Assembly: GCA_019359125.1 (NCBI GenBank)
Contig: JAHHHY010000001.1
Coordinates: 806,001-870,000, forward strand
From: Pleurocapsa minor GSE-CHR-MK 17-07R
Lineage (GTDB): Bacteria; Chloroflexota; Anaerolineae; Aggregatilineales; Phototrophicaceae
Direction: 5' to 3'
Length of the DNA: 64,000 bases
Below, piece after piece: positions 21,760 through 29,624 of the stretch (position 1 is the stretch's first letter; every line of letters starts with the position of its first letter). A program made the translations under genes and the position numbers. Under the pieces are notes generated by a model. That model saw only the letters and a program-made list of their open reading frames with translations, searched no databases and had not been told where the DNA came from.

Positions 21760-22692
21760 TTATTCCTGTGGATGACGAAGATCTACCGTTACTTCAAATA
21801 CACCGCTGTTATCAGCGTATGCACCTTTAGAATCATTGATTGCTAAGTGCAGAAATCCACTGCTATGCACAATTTGCCTATGGTTTAGACCTATGAAAAA
21901 CCCATTATCTGGCCCCTCATCACCAATCCAACCGAACAGACTCCCAATTACGCCAATTGACTGGTTTGGAAACGCCGGGTGGCCTTTAACGGAAAAGGCT
22001 TCTGGGTGTTGAAAATACTGAACCACATCTGGCGGCAAATCCAAGTATCGACCATCTGGTTGCATAAAAGTTTGACCCGAATCAATCGTTATTCTTCCGC
22101 TGGCATGAATACTTATTTCATCCCCACGAATTAAAAAAATACCCGTATTACATACAGATCGATTGATATGCGTCGGTTCAATATGCGATGAGACTTCCAT
22201 GTTGATTCGAAGACAATTATGTTCAATCGGCTTAACGTTACGAGACTTCCAGATCGAAGTAGGTGGAGCAGCGTCTTGTGATGAAGGCTCAAAGATGCTT
22301 GCAATAATTTCCACAATGTCTTTGGCCGATGGCTGAAAATCGCTGATTTCTATGGTCTGAAAAGAGCTTGCAATGACTGGTGGAACTACAGCATTTCGGA
22401 TTTTTAATGGAACTATATGTTTGCCTCTCAACCATGCCTCAGTAAGTTCCATGCGACAATAAATGGATTCGATCGCTTCCCGTGATATGAGATAGATAAA
22501 CGTATCACGCGACGCAATTTGTCGTACGATCTCATTCCACCACTTTTGTCCGCCAATCAGTTCTTTGTCAAACCAAACACCTTGTTCGGAATAAAGACGC
22601 CGCAAGAGGCTTGCTATCTGCTCAACTATTGGCCGATCTGCACTCTTATAACTGATAAAGATCTTGGACGAGCGGCGTCCTTTTCCAGCCAT
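21760..22692 (-). CDS. TIR-domain protein with a LecA-like lectin-fold C-terminus
   Basis: About 310 residues; ATG at 22692 has GGGAG at a better distance than the ATG at 22701. Residues 8-135 form a TIR domain: [37 protein letters not shown] and [10 protein letters not shown], where Glu in MELTEAW is in the place of the catalytic NADase Glu. Residues about 185-310 look like the PA-IL/LecA galactose-lectin fold: [17 protein letters not shown], a central FFIGLNH strand, and [20 protein letters not shown], which parallels the LecA calcium/sugar loop NDVPGTYGNNSG. The base composition is clearly more AT-rich than the flanking car genes, suggesting transfer. It sits 31-40 bases after carA and 19 bases before carB in the same direction. 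TIR proteins are often NAD-depleting antiphage effectors; that role here is inference. Confidence 0.78.
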
Positions 22693-22732
22693 ATGCTTCA
22701 TTGCTCCCAGTTTGTCTGATGTTAGATTCTCT

Positions 22733-23872
22733 CTACTCTAACAGTTTAGCCGAGAAACTCTTTTTAACCCGGCTGACAAATTCATCGAACAGATACAGTG
22801 AGTCGTGTGGGCCGGGCGAGGCCTCCGGGTGGTACTGCACGCTGAACGCGCCCAGCCCCTCGTGGCGCAGGCCCTCGATCGTGTTGTCGTTCAGGTTAAT
22901 GTGCGTAATTTCCGCGCCCTGCAAATTGCTGTCGGCGGTCACGGCGAAGCCATGATTGTGCGAGCTGATTTCCACTTCACCCGTCAATAGATTTTTGACC
23001 GGCTGATTGCCCCCGCGATGGCCGAAGCGCATTTTTTCGGTCTTGCCACCCAGCGCCAGCGCGAGAATCTGATGTCCGAGGCAGATGCCAAAGACCGGCA
23101 CCTTGCCCAGCAACTGCTGCGTATTGGTAATCATGCCCGTCACTGCGGCCGGATCGCCCGGCCCATTGCTGAGGAAAATCCCCTGAGGCTTCATCTTGAG
23201 CACTTCTTTGGCGGGGGTGGATGCCGGCACGACCGTCACGCGCAGGCCGCGGTCGGTCAGCATCTTGAGGATATTGCGCTTGATGCCGGTGTCGTAGGCC
23301 ACCACCAGCGGGCCCGCCGGGTCATAAGCATGGGTGCGATACCAGGCCGGGTCGCTGGCCTGTGTCCAGTGATACGGCTCCGGGCAGGTTACCTCATCCA
23401 CCAGGTTCGCGCCAGACATATCCGGGGCGGAACGCGCCAGCTTCACCAGCGCGGTCGTGTCATGGGCGGCTTCGCCGTGGGCGATGGCGGCGCGCATCAC
23501 GCCGCGCGTGCGCAGATGGCGCACCAGCATGCGGGTGGTCACTTCCGACAGGCCAATCACGCCCTGTTCGCGCAGATAGCCATCCAGATCGAGCTGGCTA
23601 CGCCAGTTGCTGACCACCGGGCTAAGCGAACGCACCACAAAGCCAGACACCCACACGCGGTCGGACTCCACGTCTTCCGGGTTGATGCCGGTATTGCCCA
23701 CATGGGGCACGGTCATCACCACGATCTGGCGGTGATAGCTGGGGTCGGTCAGGATTTCCTGATACCCGGTCATCGAGGTATTAAACACGACTTCACCCGT
23801 TTGCACGCCGGTGGCGCCAAACCCCTCTCCGGTGAAGATCATGCCGTCTTCAAGCGCAAGTGCTGCCTGCAT
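22733..23872 (-). CDS. carA: carbamoyl-phosphate synthase small (glutaminase) subunit
   Basis: Hydrolyses glutamine and passes ammonia to CarB. 379 residues: N-terminal domain starting ALALEDGMIFTGEGFGATG with the conserved GYQEILTDPSYHRQIVV, then a class I glutamine amidotransferase with catalytic Cys in VFGICLGHQILALALGG, the conserved KMRFGHRGGNQPVK and the His-Glu pair in VQYHPEASPGPHDS. AAAGGGA lies five bases before the ATG. It lies 185 bases after argJ, a gap holding a palindromic repeat, and is followed by the TIR gene. Confidence 0.97.
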   Translation of the reverse strand: MQAALALEDGMIFTGEGFGATGVQTGEVVFNTSMTGYQEILTDPSYHRQIVVMTVPHVGNTGINPEDVESDRVWVSGFVVRSLSPVVSNWRSQLDLDGYLREQGVIGLSEVTTRMLVRHLRTRGVMRAAIAHGEAAHDTTALVKLARSAPDMSGANLVDEVTCPEPYHWTQASDPAWYRTHAYDPAGPLVVAYDTGIKRNILKMLTDRGLRVTVVPASTPAKEVLKMKPQGIFLSNGPGDPAAVTGMITNTQQLLGKVPVFGICLGHQILALALGGKTEKMRFGHRGGNQPVKNLLTGEVEISSHNHGFAVTADSNLQGAEITHINLNDNTIEGLRHEGLGAFSVQYHPEASPGPHDSLYLFDEFVSRVKKSFSAKLLE

Positions 23873-24057: not shown

Positions 24058-25281
24058 CTAGCTGCGATAACTGCCGTTGATCGATACATAATCGTGGCTG
24101 AGGTCGCATGTGTAAACAATCGCACTGCCGGGGCCGCTGCCCACGGCCAGCGTGACGGTGACCTCGCTGGCCTTGACGATTTCTGTCGCCGTCGCCTCGT
24201 TGTAGGCGGTCGGCATGCCGTTTTCAAACAGCAGCAGACTATCCTCCGCCCCGGGCGCCAGGCCCGCCGCCATCGTCAGCGTGACCGCGTCCGGGTCAAA
24301 CGGCACATTGGCACGCCCGGCAGCGGCAACGATGCGCCCCCAGTTGGCATCACCGCCATAAAATGCTGTCTTGACCAGCGGAGAAGTCGCGATCGTGTTG
24401 GCGATCACTTTGGCGCTGGCATCATCCGCCGCGCCGGTCACCTCCAGCGAAATAAACTTGGTAGCGCCTTCGCCATCGCGCACAATCGCCATCGCCAGGC
24501 TCAGCGCGACGGCACGGAAGGCCTCGTCAAATTGCCTGGCGTGGTTCGGATGCACCGCGATGCCCGACGCGCCGTTGGCCAGCAGGATGACCGTGTCATT
24601 GGTGCTCATGTCGCCATCGACGACGATGCGGTTGAAGCTAATGTCGTTGGCGGCCTTGAGCGCATCGGACGCCTGCGCCGGGGTCAGCACCGCATCTGTG
24701 ACGATCACGCCCAGCATGGTCGCCATGTTCGGGGCGATCATGCCCGACCCTTTGGTGATACCCGCGATCGTAATCACACCTTCGGGCGTCTCGATGCGCG
24801 CGCTGGCAGACTTCGGACGCGTGTCAGTGGTCATGATGCCGCGCGCAGCTGCGGCCCAGTCATCGCCCAGCGCATTCACGGCCAGATTGATGCCATGTGC
24901 GATCTTGTCCATTTGCAGATGCGTGCCGATCACACCGGTGCTCATCACCAGCACGCTCGACTCCGAGATGCCGAGGGCATCGGCCGTCAGGCGCGACATT
25001 TCGCGGGCATTGGCCAGCCCCTGCTCACCCGTGCAGGCATTGGCGCAGCGGGTATTCACCGTCACGGCGCGGATATCCCCCGCGCTCTCAGCCATGCGCT
25101 CCATGTCCAGCAGCACCGGTGCGGCCTTCATCAGGTTGGTGGTGAATACGGCGGCAGCAGCGCACGGCCTGTCGCTCACGATCAGCGACATATCTTCGGC
25201 CCCGCTGGCCTTCAGCCCGGCAGCCACACCCGCGACACGAAATCCGGCCACCTGTTCAATCGTCTGCGAAACATTCGTCAC
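24058..25281 (-). CDS. argJ: glutamate N-acetyltransferase / amino-acid acetyltransferase
   Basis: Transfers acetyl from N-acetylornithine to glutamate, closing the cyclic arginine pathway. 407 residues; the autocleavage site is in GSGMIAPNMATMLGVIVTDA near residue 180-200, with Thr of ATMLG as the nucleophile. Also seen: SDRPCAAAAVFTTNLMKAAPV, VNTRCANACTGEQGLANA and the closing CDLSHDYVSINGSYRS. The GTG/ATG start overlaps argD by four bases. Presence of argJ and absence of argE nearby supports the recycling route. Confidence 0.97.
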   Translation of the reverse strand: MTNVSQTIEQVAGFRVAGVAAGLKASGAEDMSLIVSDRPCAAAAVFTTNLMKAAPVLLDMERMAESAGDIRAVTVNTRCANACTGEQGLANAREMSRLTADALGISESSVLVMSTGVIGTHLQMDKIAHGINLAVNALGDDWAAAARGIMTTDTRPKSASARIETPEGVITIAGITKGSGMIAPNMATMLGVIVTDAVLTPAQASDALKAANDISFNRIVVDGDMSTNDTVILLANGASGIAVHPNHARQFDEAFRAVALSLAMAIVRDGEGATKFISLEVTGAADDASAKVIANTIATSPLVKTAFYGGDANWGRIVAAAGRANVPFDPDAVTLTMAAGLAPGAEDSLLLFENGMPTAYNEATATEIVKASEVTVTLAVGSGPGSAIVYTCDLSHDYVSINGSYRS

Positions 25282-26480
25282 GGCTTTTCCCCCATCCCTG
25301 CCAGGATTATCGTCAGTTTTTCAACCAGTTCGTCGACCTCAGGCTTGCCAATTGTCAGCGGCGGCACAAACCGGATCACGTTCGGCCCGGCGTTCACCAT
25401 CAGCAGGCCATGCTGATAGCCTGCCTCGATGACCGGCCCAACGTCCACGTTTAGCTCCATGCCCACCATCAGGCCGCGACCGCGCACTTCGACCACCAGC
25501 GGACTGTTGATTTCGCTCAGGCGCTCCTGCAAATACTCACCCGTCTCGCGCACGTGCGCCAGGAAGGCGGGTTCGCTCACGCGGTCGAGCACATATTTCG
25601 CCACGCCTGTGATGAAAGGCCCGCCGCCAAACGTCGTGCCATGGTCGCCAGGCTGAATATGCGCGGCCACTTTTTCGGTCGTCAGGATCGCACCAATCGG
25701 CATGCCACCCGCCAGCGGCTTGGCCAGCGTCATGATGTCCGGATTTACGCCGCTTGGCTCATTCGACCACAGCGTGCCGGTGCGCCCCATGCCACACTGC
25801 ACCTCGTCAAATACCAGCAGCGCCCCCACGGCATCACACTTCCCCCGCAGAAACTGAAGGAATTCATCCGTCGCCGGGTGAATGCCGCCTTCGCCCTGCA
25901 CCGGCTCGATGAATACCGCGCACGTGCGCTCGGTAATGGCCGCATCCGCCGACGCGATATCGTTATATTCCGCGATCACCACATCGCTCATCAGCGGGCG
26001 AAACGGCACCTGATACTTGTCTTTCGGCGTCATCGCCAGCGAGCCCATCGTGCGGCCGTGGAACGCGTGGCTGAACGCGACAATCTGCGTCTTGTCCGGC
26101 GCGCCAGAGTCATAGGCGACTTTGCGCGCAAACTTGATCGCGCCTTCGTTGGCCTCGGTGCCGCTGTTGCTGAAAAATACGCGGTCGGCAAACGATTTTT
26201 CCACCAGGGCGGCGGCCAGTTCTGCCTGTGGCGCGGTGTAATACAGGTTGCTGGTATGAATCAGCCCTATGCTGGCTTTCTGGATGGCGGCCTGCAAACC
26301 GGCATCGTTATAGCCCAGCGCATTGACCGCGATACCCGCCACCCAGTCGGTGTAGGCCTTGCCCGATTCGTCGTACAGTGTCACGCCATCGCCATGCGTC
26401 AGCACAAATGGCGGACGCTTGTAGGTCTGCACGAGATTGTCATTTTCCAGCTCGATAATCGATTGTGCTGTGTTCACCAC
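25278..26480 (-). CDS. argD: acetylornithine aminotransferase
   Basis: PLP class III transaminase converting N-acetylglutamate semialdehyde to N-acetylornithine. 400 residues: DGVTLYDESGKAYTDWVAGIAVNALGYN at the start, FSNSGTEANEGAIKFARK near 98-115, FSHAFHGRTMGSLAMTPK, VFDEVQCGMGRTG near 225, and the Schiff-base Lys in IMTLAKPLAGGMPIGAI. It overlaps argJ by four bases and lies 45 bases after argB. Gene order makes ArgD more likely than other class III aminotransferases. Confidence 0.95.
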   Translation of the reverse strand: MVNTAQSIIELENDNLVQTYKRPPFVLTHGDGVTLYDESGKAYTDWVAGIAVNALGYNDAGLQAAIQKASIGLIHTSNLYYTAPQAELAAALVEKSFADRVFFSNSGTEANEGAIKFARKVAYDSGAPDKTQIVAFSHAFHGRTMGSLAMTPKDKYQVPFRPLMSDVVIAEYNDIASADAAITERTCAVFIEPVQGEGGIHPATDEFLQFLRGKCDAVGALLVFDEVQCGMGRTGTLWSNEPSGVNPDIMTLAKPLAGGMPIGAILTTEKVAAHIQPGDHGTTFGGGPFITGVAKYVLDRVSEPAFLAHVRETGEYLQERLSEINSPLVVEVRGRGLMVGMELNVDVGPVIEAGYQHGLLMVNAGPNVIRFVPPLTIGKPEVDELVEKLTIILAGMGEKP

Positions 26481-26525: not shown

Positions 26526-27290
26526 TCAGCTGTGAAATACTGTGCCTGTGCCCGCTTCCAGGCCGGCCAGATTGGTGATGACCGCCTGGTTGACGCCATC
26601 CTGCAGCGCGCGCAGCGCCGTCGTCACTTTGGGGATCATGCCCCCGAAAATTGTCCCGTCAGCAATCATAGATTCCACCTGCGCAGGCGTCAGAGAAGGC
26701 AGCAGCGCGCCATCCTTCAGCACGCCGGGCACGTTCGACAGAAACACGATGCGATCGGCATCCAACGCGGCGGCCAGCGCGCCAGCCACGATATCCGCAT
26801 TGACGTTGAAATTATGCGCTGTTCCTCCGCAGATGGGCGCGACCACCGGCACCACGCCCAGGCCCAGCAGGTCCGTCAGGATGCTGGCATCGACCGACTC
26901 AATCTCGCCGGTGAAGCCCATATCCTGGCCATCAACCGTGATCGTGCGCGCACGCGCCAGGCCCGCATCCACACCGCTGAGGCCGAGCGCCCGTACGCCT
27001 GCATTCAGCAGCGTGCGCACCAGTCGCTTGTTCACGGCGCCGGCCAGTACCATCTCCACCAGTTGCAGCGAGTCGGCATCGGTCACGCGGATGCCCTGCA
27101 CATAGCGCGGCTGAATACCCATGCGCTCCTGAAGCTGGGAAATCTCTTTGCCACCGCCGTGCACGATGACGGCGGGCACCGACAGCGCCTTGACCACGCT
27201 GGCAAACTGTGTCAGCACGGCTTCATCGTCCAACTCGTGCCCGCTGATCTTGATAAGAATCGGAGAGGTCATCGGTTGTGCATCCCTCAC
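26526..27290 (-). CDS. argB: acetylglutamate kinase
   Basis: Phosphorylates N-acetylglutamate, the second step to ornithine. 254 residues from the GTG at 27290, which overlaps the argC stop as GTGA; an ATG at 27272 giving 248 residues is equally plausible. Motifs of the amino-acid kinase fold: ILIKISGHELDDEAV, VIVHGGGKEISQLQERMG near 42-60, LVRTLLNAGVRALGLSGVDAG and IPKVTTALRALQDGVNQAVIT. The short length and lack of an N-terminal helix resemble the arginine-insensitive dimeric type rather than the arginine-inhibited hexameric type, which would leave control to gene expression. Confidence 0.96.
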   Translation of the reverse strand: MRDAQPMTSPILIKISGHELDDEAVLTQFASVVKALSVPAVIVHGGGKEISQLQERMGIQPRYVQGIRVTDADSLQLVEMVLAGAVNKRLVRTLLNAGVRALGLSGVDAGLARARTITVDGQDMGFTGEIESVDASILTDLLGLGVVPVVAPICGGTAHNFNVNADIVAGALAAALDADRIVFLSNVPGVLKDGALLPSLTPAQVESMIADGTIFGGMIPKVTTALRALQDGVNQAVITNLAGLEAGTGTVFHS

Positions 27291-28297
27291 AGCAGCGCCG
27301 TAAATTCAGGCAGGCCCAGCATAATGTTCATGCACTGCACCGCCTGGCCGCTGGCGCCCTTGCGCAGATTGTCGGTCACGCTGGTGATATGCAGGTATTC
27401 CGGCGTAATCGGCGTCAGGCTGATCGCTGCGCCATTGCTCCGCACCACGTGCTTCAGCGTGGCCTGCTGGCCTTTCGGCAGCACTTTCACCAGCGGCTCG
27501 GCCTGATACGTCTCGGCATACAGCGCCTGTGCCTCAAAGGCATCAACGCCTTCCTTCAGCGTGACGTAAATGCTGCTCATCAGCCCGCGATCAACCGGCA
27601 GCAGATGTGGCGTGAAAATCAGCATGCCCGCGTGCGCGTCCAGCTTGTGGATTTCCTGTTCGATTTCGCCTACGTGACGATGTACACGGCCGGGATTATA
27701 TGGGGAAAAATTGCTGTACACCTCGACAAACTGGAGGTTGGGCTTCGGCTCGCGCCCGGCACCGGACACGCCCGACTTGGCATCGACGATGATCGGCGCG
27801 CCGGGCTTCAGCCAGCCAGCCTTCAGCAGCGGCATCAGGCCCAGGATCGTCGTGGTGGGATAGCAGCCCGGCGCTGCAATGGCCGGCACGCCTGCCAGCT
27901 TTTCACGGTTAATCTCAGGCAGGCCATACGGGGTATCGAGCAGCTCCGGAAACGGATGGTCGTGCTCATACCATTTCTTGTAGCTTTCGGCCGTATCCAG
28001 CCGCAGGTCCGCCGACAGGTCGATCACGCGCACGCCTGCCTCAAGACACTGCTTGGCCATCTTCGCGCTCACGCCGTGCGGCAGCGCCAGGAACGCCACA
28101 TCCAGCTCGATCAGGTCCGCCTTGTCCGGAGTGACATAGGACAGGCCGTCTGCGAACGGGACGGGCTGACCCGCGTAGGTACTGGAAGTCGCAAATACGA
28201 TTTCCACCGCCGGATGCCGCGAGAGAATTTCCACCAGGTCCTGCCCCGCGTAGCCAGACCCGCCGTATACCCCAACTCTGTACTGCACCTGTGTCAT
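27287..28297 (-). CDS. argC: N-acetyl-gamma-glutamyl-phosphate reductase
   Basis: NADPH reduction of acetylglutamyl phosphate to the semialdehyde. 336 residues: GVYGGSGYAGQDLVEILSRHP at 8-28 (nucleotide-binding), VAFLALPHGVSAKMA, the catalytic Cys in APGCYPTTTILGLMPLL near 145 and FTPHLLPVDRGLMSSIYV. The ATG at 28297 follows GGAAGGT by seven bases and lies only 15 bases after the U-tract of a strong terminator, the attenuator described separately. First gene of argCBDJ. Confidence 0.97.
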   Translation of the reverse strand: MTQVQYRVGVYGGSGYAGQDLVEILSRHPAVEIVFATSSTYAGQPVPFADGLSYVTPDKADLIELDVAFLALPHGVSAKMAKQCLEAGVRVIDLSADLRLDTAESYKKWYEHDHPFPELLDTPYGLPEINREKLAGVPAIAAPGCYPTTTILGLMPLLKAGWLKPGAPIIVDAKSGVSGAGREPKPNLQFVEVYSNFSPYNPGRVHRHVGEIEQEIHKLDAHAGMLIFTPHLLPVDRGLMSSIYVTLKEGVDAFEAQALYAETYQAEPLVKVLPKGQQATLKHVVRSNGAAISLTPITPEYLHITSVTDNLRKGASGQAVQCMNIMLGLPEFTALL

Positions 28298-28312
28298 TGA
28301 CCATACCTTCCG

Positions 28313-28354
28313 AAATAAAAATCCCCCGCCTCATCAGGTGAGGTCAGGGGATTT
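28313..28354 (-). terminator. intrinsic terminator (attenuator) before argC
   Basis: On the minus strand AAATCCCC (28354-28347) pairs with GGGGATTT (28325-28318), with an inner CCTCA/TGAGG stem, and is followed by TTTTATTT. It lies between the leader ORF and argC and so can only act on transcripts entering the operon. Confidence 0.88.
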
Positions 28355-28393
28355 GCTGGCGAATCCGGGCGTCCCACTTGCACGCCGCTGTCG

Positions 28394-28483
28394 TTAACGC
28401 AAAAATCCCTCAATGACCTCACGGATCATAGGGCGACGGCTGCGACGACGCGGGATAGAAATCACAACGCAAGTCATGGACAT
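28394..28483 (-). CDS. arginine leader peptide
   Basis: A 29-codon frame starting ATG at 28483, preceded by AAGG at a good distance, ending TAA at 28394. Residues 11-18 read PRRRSRRP, with codons CGT CGT CGC AGC CGT CGC giving five Arg in six codons; seven Arg in total of 29. The C-terminal codons double as the antiterminator arm. It starts about 30 bases after the predicted transcription start and ends 40 bases before the terminator. The peptide itself is probably only a ribosome position sensor. Confidence 0.85.
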   Translation of the reverse strand: MSMTCVVISIPRRRSRRPMIREVIEGFLR

Positions 28484-28519
28484 GACAACCTTGTCGAAGT
28501 CCTGCAAGATAACGCCGAT

Positions 28520-28548
28520 ACTGTAGCGAAAAACACGCGGTGTGTCAA
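28520..28548 (-). promoter_or_regulatory. promoter of the arg operon
   Basis: Consensus TTGACA (28548-28543), a 17-base spacer and TACAGT (28525-28520) on the minus strand. No ARG-box-like palindrome is evident around it. Confidence 0.8.
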
Positions 28549-28682: not shown

Positions 28683-29624
28683 GTGATTGAAGTTAAATCT
28701 CTCACCCGTCTGTACGGGGAAGTGATCGCTGTCGATCACATCAGCTTTAAAGCGGCATCCGGCGAAATCGTCGGCCTGCTGGGGCCTAATGGCGCTGGCA
28801 AAACCACCACCATGCGCATGCTGACCGGCTTCCTGCCGCCCACCAGCGGCAGCGCGAAAATCGGCAAGTACGACATCGTGGAAGATTCGATGGAGGCGCG
28901 CCGCCGCGTGGGCTATCTGCCGGAACGCGTGCCGCTCTATCAGGATATGACCGTGTTTGGCTACATCCTGTTCTGGGCACAACTGCGCCAGGTAAAAGCC
29001 CCGCGCGACCGCACCGTCGACGTGCTGAAGCGCTTCGACCTGCTGGGCAGGCGCGACAAACTGGTGCGCCAGCTTTCCAAAGGGCTGCGCCAGCGGCTGG
29101 GGCTGGCCCAGGCACTCGTGCACGACCCACCGGTGATTATCCTGGACGAACCTACCATCGGCATCGACCCGCAGCAGGTGATCGAGGTGCGCCAGGCCGT
29201 GCGCGACCTGCGCAAGTCGCATACGGTGCTGTTCAGCACGCACATCCTCAGCGAGGCCGAAGAAATCTGCGACCGCGTGGTCATCATCGACAAAGGCAGG
29301 ATCGTCGCCCAGGGCACGCCAGACGCGCTCGAAAAGCAGGTGCGCGCCAATTCGTTCACCCTCGAGGTGGGCAGGCTGGCGCCCGAACGGGTGCTGGAAG
29401 TGCTGCGGGCCATCCCCGGCGTGGCATCCGTGAAGCGGCGGGATGCCCATTTCTCCGTCGAGACCGATGGCTCACGCGATGTGCGCGGGGATATTTCCGG
29501 AGCGATTGTCGCGGCGGGCGGTGAACTACTGGAGATGAAACAGGTGAAAAGCTCGCTGGAGGATGTGTTCCTGCGTGCCGTGCAGTCTGCCGCTGACAAC
29601 CCTCAGGGACAGAAAAAATCATGA
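28683..29624 (+). CDS. ABC transporter ATP-binding protein (GldA-like)
   Basis: 313 residues from a GTG start. Walker A LGPNGAGKTTTMRML at 33-47, Q-loop region RRRVGYLPERVPLYQDMTV, signature LSKGLRQRLGLAQAL near 130, Walker B VIILDEPTIGIDP near 149, and H-loop FSTHILSEAEE. The C-terminal 80 residues form the extra domain common in drug-export-type and GldA ATPases. It is coupled by a four-base overlap (ATGA) to an ABC-2 permease and then a GldG-like protein, so it powers a Gld-type export or membrane-remodelling complex. Substrate unknown. Confidence 0.93.
   Translation: MIEVKSLTRLYGEVIAVDHISFKAASGEIVGLLGPNGAGKTTTMRMLTGFLPPTSGSAKIGKYDIVEDSMEARRRVGYLPERVPLYQDMTVFGYILFWAQLRQVKAPRDRTVDVLKRFDLLGRRDKLVRQLSKGLRQRLGLAQALVHDPPVIILDEPTIGIDPQQVIEVRQAVRDLRKSHTVLFSTHILSEAEEICDRVVIIDKGRIVAQGTPDALEKQVRANSFTLEVGRLAPERVLEVLRAIPGVASVKRRDAHFSVETDGSRDVRGDISGAIVAAGGELLEMKQVKSSLEDVFLRAVQSAADNPQGQKKS

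Follow-up and report, generated by a model that had tools for sequence, protein, structure and literature searches.

A predicted ribosome-mediated arginine attenuator upstream of argC in Chloroflexota genomes in which ArgR is not detected

The argC locus and the parts of its leader

The window (the whole stretch of 64,000 nucleotides that was analysed) carries on its minus strand the arginine biosynthesis genes argC, argB, argD and argJ, identified by NCBIfam models, followed after a gap of 185 nt by carA, a TIR-domain ORF and carB. All elements of the leader discussed here are read on the minus strand, between argC and a divergently oriented ABC transporter gene. In the direction of transcription of argC, the features are:

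28683-29624, plus strand: ABC transporter ATPase gene, the divergent upstream neighbour
28543-28548, minus strand: putative -35 hexamer TTGACA of the leader promoter, a consensus match
28520-28525, minus strand: putative -10 hexamer TACAGT, separated from the -35 hexamer by a 17 nt spacer
28394-28483, minus strand: leader ORF MSMTCVVISIPRRRSRRPMIREVIEGFLR, 29 codons and a stop, with an Arg run that is kept in relatives
28433-28450, minus strand: control codons CGT CGT CGC AGC CGT CGC, 5 Arg of 6
28423-28437, minus strand: predicted segment 1 (protector), covering the last part of the Arg run and the codons that follow, from a single-sequence fold
28414-28422, minus strand: segment 2, part a of the antiterminator 5' arm, GTGAGGTCA, within the leader ORF, from covariation and the duplex test
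28403-28409, minus strand: part b of the antiterminator 5' arm, GGGATTT, in the pre-terminator fold
28338-28354, minus strand: segment 3, AAATCCCCTGACCTCAC, the arm common to antiterminator and terminator
28319-28354, minus strand: intrinsic terminator hairpin, segments 3 and 4, -22.1 kcal/mol
28313-28321, minus strand: U-tract TTTTTATTT, read from the sequence
28306-28311, minus strand: GGAAGG, the likely ribosome binding site of argC, not part of the hairpin, from sequence only
27287-28297, minus strand: argC, N-acetyl-gamma-glutamyl-phosphate reductase (TIGR01850, 343.2 bits, cut-off 233.6)
26526-27290, minus strand: argB, acetylglutamate kinase (TIGR00761)
25278-26480, minus strand: argD, acetylornithine transaminase (TIGR00707)
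24058-25281, minus strand: argJ, ornithine acetyltransferase/N-acetylglutamate synthase (NF003802/TIGR00120)
22733-23872, minus strand: carA, putatively a possible operon end by read-through

The promoter hexamers agree with the consensus at 10 of 12 positions, and shuffled sequences yield 0.5 such sites on average. AAGG precedes the ATG of the leader ORF, in which 7 of the 29 codons are Arg, and the U-tract ends 15 nt before the argC ATG (28297). Two stretches of the leader are complementary to the 5' arm of the terminator: GTGAGGTCA (28422-28414) to TGACCTCAC (28346-28338), over 9 bp, and GGGATTT (28409-28403) to AAATCCC (28354-28348), over 7 bp. Every part named in the preliminary description of this DNA, that is the promoter, the 29-codon leader, the terminator and the 9+7 bp pairing of leader and terminator arm, is present in the sequence. 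A simple terminator scan of the window did not list the argC-leader hairpin, in our reading because a single-base bulge interrupts its stem. Since the ABC transporter gene is divergent, its transcript does not end at this terminator. The fold of the whole leader is mildly better than that of shuffled sequences (z -1.48, equalled or bettered in stability by 16 of 200 shuffles); the question of chance at a single locus is settled by comparison with relatives.

Downstream, argJ directly precedes carA in 13 of the 16 carA loci of relatives (own included), as read from the printed sequence, and co-transcription of argCBDJ with carA is plausible. The TIR-domain ORF (21760-22701, minus strand; PF13676, 69.5 bits) sits between carA and carB in an apparent metabolic operon. 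A second argC homologue, 37% identical, occurs elsewhere in the same genome (L002, C13:103939-104943).

Conservation of the Arg-run leader

Relatives were compared by a rule that asks for a short ORF holding 4 or more Arg within 8 codons, its stop lying 10-70 nt before the lowest-energy terminator. The rule finds such a leader before argC in 31 of 36 loci at the level of the order (60 shuffles: mean 1.2, maximum 4) and in 27 of 43 loci from the other orders of the class (60 shuffles: mean 2.1, maximum 5). Outside Chloroflexota the figure is 3 of 31 argC loci (shuffled mean 1.2, maximum 4). By this measure the predicted Arg-run leader before argC is conserved and beyond chance. The preliminary description had named as its own test the occurrence in relatives of an Arg-run leader with a paired antiterminator and terminator; these counts, and an antiterminator that covaries (see below), bear it out.

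Of the 334 genomes matched, the class sample takes 30 loci (own included) and 40 more argC upstream regions, chosen approximately in descending order of argC score, with further loci added later; 38 of the 40 belong to other orders. Because the best argC matches were sampled first, the class-wide frequency of the leader is a biased estimate. Two of the "class" loci, L133 and L152, belong to the organism's own order and were moved to the order set in the final counts. The duplicates L096, L180, L182, L184 and L186 are removed from the final rule counts and kept in the hairpin and fold-model counts. Loci without a recognisable argC N-terminus were omitted (L179, L185, L192, L198 and 27 of 75 non-Chloroflexota loci), and 27 fetched upstream regions were kept with an approximate argC start. 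L002 is excluded, and one locus set excludes L090, L094, L109 and the duplicate L096.

No residue besides Arg approaches its frequency at the place of the control codons in the order sample, where any residue other than Arg satisfies the rule in at most 3 of 36 loci. In the other orders, 8 loci have glycine at 4 of 8 as well; their leaders contain both residues (e.g. RIRRPETLPGIGSGAGRR). The Arg codons used across loci are of all kinds (CGT 142, CGC 128, AGG 32, CGA 17, CGG 15, AGA 3), which points to selection on arginine rather than on the letters of the RNA. The rule fails in 5 of the 36 order-level loci; by eye, Arg runs are shorter or otherwise placed in L097, L103 and L106, and no Arg run is seen in L090 and L109. 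In the other orders it fails in 16 of 43; among these are loci with 3 Arg and loci with nothing.

Within the organism's own genus, the Arg run is kept in 13 of 14 argC loci, mostly as RRRSRRP. The fourteenth locus, L358, has a degenerate run, VRRCSPRE, with the terminator and a GAGGT segment remaining, and is possibly a decaying attenuator. An Arg-run ORF, a terminator and a complementary segment are found in all of five Anaerolineae loci, L003-L007, whose argC is 62-74% identical (L003-L006 come from named contigs, their order not confirmed, and the L003 and L004 leaders are the own-genus leaders of L353 and L356). Across the wider order sample the layout recurs while the leader peptides diverge, and several members of the class display four segments, with CCAGACC-NNN-GGTCTGG in the leader and CCAGACC...GGTCTGG in the terminator. 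A terminator-like hairpin is present in 35 of 35 order, 40 of 40 class and 9 of 10 further class loci (five duplicates included).

Two families beyond the class also carry the element, at seven argC loci (L172-L177, from one genus, and the single locus L178). The argC of these loci is 53-55% identical to that of the window, from either old inheritance or transfer. A search of the organism's own genome with the RRRSRRP codon pattern gives 21 matches (12 forward, 9 reverse) against 9 for a reversed control and carries no information on further leaders.

Pairing of the leader with the terminator arm

In the window, the duplex of leader tail and terminator arm reaches -23.5 kcal/mol, where 200 dinucleotide shuffles average -10.6 kcal/mol (p = 0.005), and a stricter ungapped test of this pairing gives p = 0.03. 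Among the 59 distinct loci that pass the Arg and spacing filter, every one has a duplex of leader tail and arm 3 that exceeds the shuffled mean in strength, and in 46 it has p <= 0.05, in an energy-based test that includes the loop. An ungapped duplex test confined to the stem arm is weak, with p <= 0.05 in 24 of 86 loci; the loci being related, no use is made of its Fisher combination.

Covariation was followed in an alignment (A1) of 33 loci. In the helix of segments 2 and 3, GAGGTC:GACCTC, 92.4% of 198 cells are paired and 11 cells are double-changed, values of which neither is reached by any of 500 shuffles, and sliding the partner lowers the pairing to 22-57%. On three of five measures none of the 500 shuffles reaches this helix, and it falls within the shuffle range on pairs with a double change (130 of 500) and on pair types (109 of 500). 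The terminator helix of segments 3 and 4 has 78.4% of 329 cells paired and 24 double changes, again with 0 of 500 shuffles, the aligned sequences being related so that these shuffle counts are not probabilities. The predicted antiterminator overlaps the 5' arm of the terminator and covaries with it.

An occlusion fold model considers two ribosome positions, the first Arg codon and the stop, at a moment before segment 4 exists. It covers 77 loci, 13 having been left out by hand where the script chose no leader or the wrong ORF. When the ribosome sits on the first Arg codon, the leader is predicted to pair with over half of arm 3 in 65 of the 77 loci (62 of 72 without duplicates), the antiterminator being not favoured with a stalled ribosome in 12; with the ribosome at the stop, this happens in 0 of 77. 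Once segment 4 is present, the terminator is the more stable structure despite the stalled ribosome (median pair probability 0.94 in the order, 0.78 in the class), and the window's own leader likewise favours it. Since the terminator usually wins at equilibrium, with the ribosome in either position, the switch must be kinetic, decided during transcription, as such switches are.

In the scheme that we infer from these parts, RNA polymerase would start some 30 nt upstream of the leader ORF, with a ribosome behind it. When arginyl-tRNA is scarce, the ribosome would wait on the Arg run and leave segment 2 open for pairing with segment 3 as soon as the latter emerges; this pairing would delay the terminator, and argCBDJ would be transcribed. 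When arginine is plentiful, the ribosome would reach the stop codon, cover GGGATTT and crowd GTGAGGTCA, segment 3 would then pair with segment 4, and transcription would end before argC. Without translation, the region of the Arg codons would fold with segment 2 and the terminator would form, which is the protector state of classical systems; the single-sequence fold predicts just such a pairing of segments 1 and 2 in the absence of the ribosome. It would appear, as the preliminary description proposed, that the argC leader is very probably a ribosome-mediated transcription attenuator sensing arginine by way of charged tRNA-Arg. The proposal draws its support from the Arg-run leaders of relatives, from the covariation, and from a search for ArgR that finds it in 0 of 199 class genomes (see below).

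A leader peptide rich in arginine could also act as a peptide, with free arginine (or ornithine) and the nascent chain together arresting the ribosome, as happens with the arginine attenuator peptides of fungi and with TnaC and SpeFL in enterobacteria. The pathway is indeed that of arginine, the leader is short and basic, and the core RRRSRRP is largely kept as a peptide within the organism's own genus. Across the class, however, the leaders share the content and position of Arg and not a peptide sequence (compare RRPRRPRTTGLVF, TRRRRGINREMEIGAD and LRLRRPRTNEV), and the non-Arg residues that are kept, around E-V, overlap the pairing segment, where a constraint on the RNA can explain them. Arrest upstream of segment 2 would also produce read-through, and high arginine would then switch biosynthesis on needlessly. 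We regard peptide arrest as improbable.

Even less credit belongs to a plain constitutive terminator that happens to follow a basic ORF, with no regulation at all or with some other ligand (a riboswitch or a protein) in charge. GC-rich upstream regions do produce Arg-rich ORFs, on average 1.2 in 36 and 2.1 in 43 after shuffling and more under loose rules, but 31 of 36 and 27 of 43 are observed, and the leader segment covaries with the terminator arm. As for another ligand, no Rfam family reaches its gathering score in the window or in L001, L248, L172 and L140.

Macrolides stall ribosomes at basic-X-basic motifs, and the leader peptide does contain R-X-R, so that a leader sensing ribosome-targeting drugs such as macrolides, and not arginine, may be imagined. 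A text on the hflX motif uORFC-6-1 names Arg-Leu-Arg as a motif of antibiotic-resistance leader peptides (PMC8632094). Such a role is nonetheless extremely unlikely here, because the genes downstream serve arginine biosynthesis (argC by design of the search, argG found separately), the four genes that were checked behind the leader proved to be argC, argB, argD and argJ, and R-X-R alone does not require runs of 4-6 Arg.

ArgR, other operons and known systems

Repression by ArgR, a DNA-binding repressor acting at ARG boxes, is the textbook form of arginine control in bacteria. A search for its C-terminal domain (PF02863) finds none in 199 genomes of the class and none in the organism's own genome; as a control, the same search, which covers the C-terminal domain only, finds it in 8 of 14 named genomes. 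Across the phylum, 66 of 301 genomes have the domain, all of them outside the class. In the ArgR-bearing families of Chloroflexota, 8 of 11 argC upstream regions contain a palindrome of the TGCAT-N-ATGCA type at a score of at least 0.875 (L208, L209, L212, L213, L218, L220, L238 and L239), which we take to be an ARG-box-like site; the maximum score of this type in the order loci is 0.8. No attenuator is seen at argC in the loci of family f71, and the attenuator is not in every ArgR-less lineage.

A second Arg leader, MNTATTLTRVIRRRRTA, stands with a terminator before argG elsewhere in the same genome (L248, in C22, upstream of argG at 247497). Its segment 2 lies after the stop codon, and its pairing has p = 0.229 in the window used by the script. 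By script, argG has an Arg leader in 9 of 17 loci of relatives (own included; L253, which has no argG motif, is excluded) and in 4 of 29 further class loci, and by eye such leaders are also found in L325, L330, L343, L346 and L348. The end of another arg gene precedes argG in L241 and L243, where argG therefore seems to lie inside an operon. With this second copy of the design, attenuation probably controls arginine synthesis in the lineage, a task that falls to ArgR in many bacteria.

Three other candidates were rejected. As a separately attenuated unit, carA has no leader with a terminator in 16 loci of relatives. Arg-containing ORFs are listed by the script in several carA loci, with 4 of 8 in L271, L273 and L274, and in these three we read them as out-of-frame argJ coding sequence; some starts of carA and of OTCase/ATCase are misplaced by the script. 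For argF/OTCase and ATCase, an ORF with 4 Arg in 8 occurs in 4 of 30 upstream regions, in none of them seen before a terminator. As a sign of general use of leader peptides, trpE fails because the organism's own trpE has a T-box (L321 2080-2345, minus strand; RF00230, 102.8 bits). A loose rule, with neither terminator nor spacing, flags Arg-rich ORFs in 7 of 17 trpE upstream regions, and these chance ORFs make the loose rule worthless without terminator and spacing.

We think it likely that the class has a tRNA-Arg attenuation regulon of argC and argG, or of more operons, and that it replaced ArgR or never had it. This would be the first arginine-specific ribosome-mediated case for a biosynthetic operon in bacteria, old, with diverged leaders, and shared with two families beyond the class. 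A large lineage in which ArgR is not detected seems to rely on a translation-coupled switch, of a specificity that the surveys consulted do not report, and the distribution suggests a rule by which some Chloroflexota families have ArgR and palindromes and others have attenuators. The leader itself offers a compact putative arginine sensor. With a T-box at trpE and putative attenuators in the same genome, two tRNA-sensing strategies coexist, and the choice between them per amino acid becomes open to study.

T-box leaders likewise respond to tRNA charging and end in a terminator and antiterminator, but the T-box binds tRNA directly, without translation; its covariance model has no match at gathering score in L001, L248, L172 and L140 or in the window. 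The ArgR/ARG-box system controls the same genes, but through a repressor that binds DNA, and the PF02863 search finds no gene for it in this genome. A survey of Actinobacteria describes, in the part available, arginine operons without a conserved RNA element, and T-boxes as the RNA control of arginine elsewhere (PMC1262725). The carA leader of Pseudomonas aeruginosa also places a leader peptide before an arginine/pyrimidine gene; the available part of that report describes control by pyrimidines, perhaps through attenuation, and an arginine effect at the level of transcription (PMC4997734).

The orf34 leader of speF in Salmonella resembles the argC leader in that its short ORF has Arg codons side by side, and the available text describes how low arginine makes the ribosome pause at these codons, after which the mRNA refolds (PMC6386406). 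It differs in that it belongs to gamma-proteobacteria, has two consecutive Arg codons and controls ornithine decarboxylase. It works through Rho, RNase G and a structure that sequesters the ribosome binding site, its authors having found, as far as the available text goes, no rho-independent terminator (PMC6386406). At the present locus, the gene is argC and a terminator hairpin with a U-tract is there. The main text of the survey of Naville and Gautheret does not contain the word "arginine" (PMC2965389). In searches of an open-licence library, no Arg-specific attenuator of a bacterial arginine-biosynthetic operon was found; the Lopatovskaya 2010 survey could contain one.

With classical attenuators the argC leader shares a run of codons for the end product, an overlapping antiterminator and terminator, and, in several members of the class, the layout of 1:2, 2:3 and 3:4 pairings. 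Such ribosome-mediated attenuators are established for the trp, his, leu, thr, phe and ilv operons. Unlike these, the argC and argG leaders are predicted to sense arginine and belong to Chloroflexota, and most argC loci have segment 2 within the leader ORF. The "new class" of the preliminary description was an overstatement, the mechanism being of the classical trp/his type with a new specificity. Its kind is known; what appears to be new is the specificity for arginine and its use across the class instead of ArgR.
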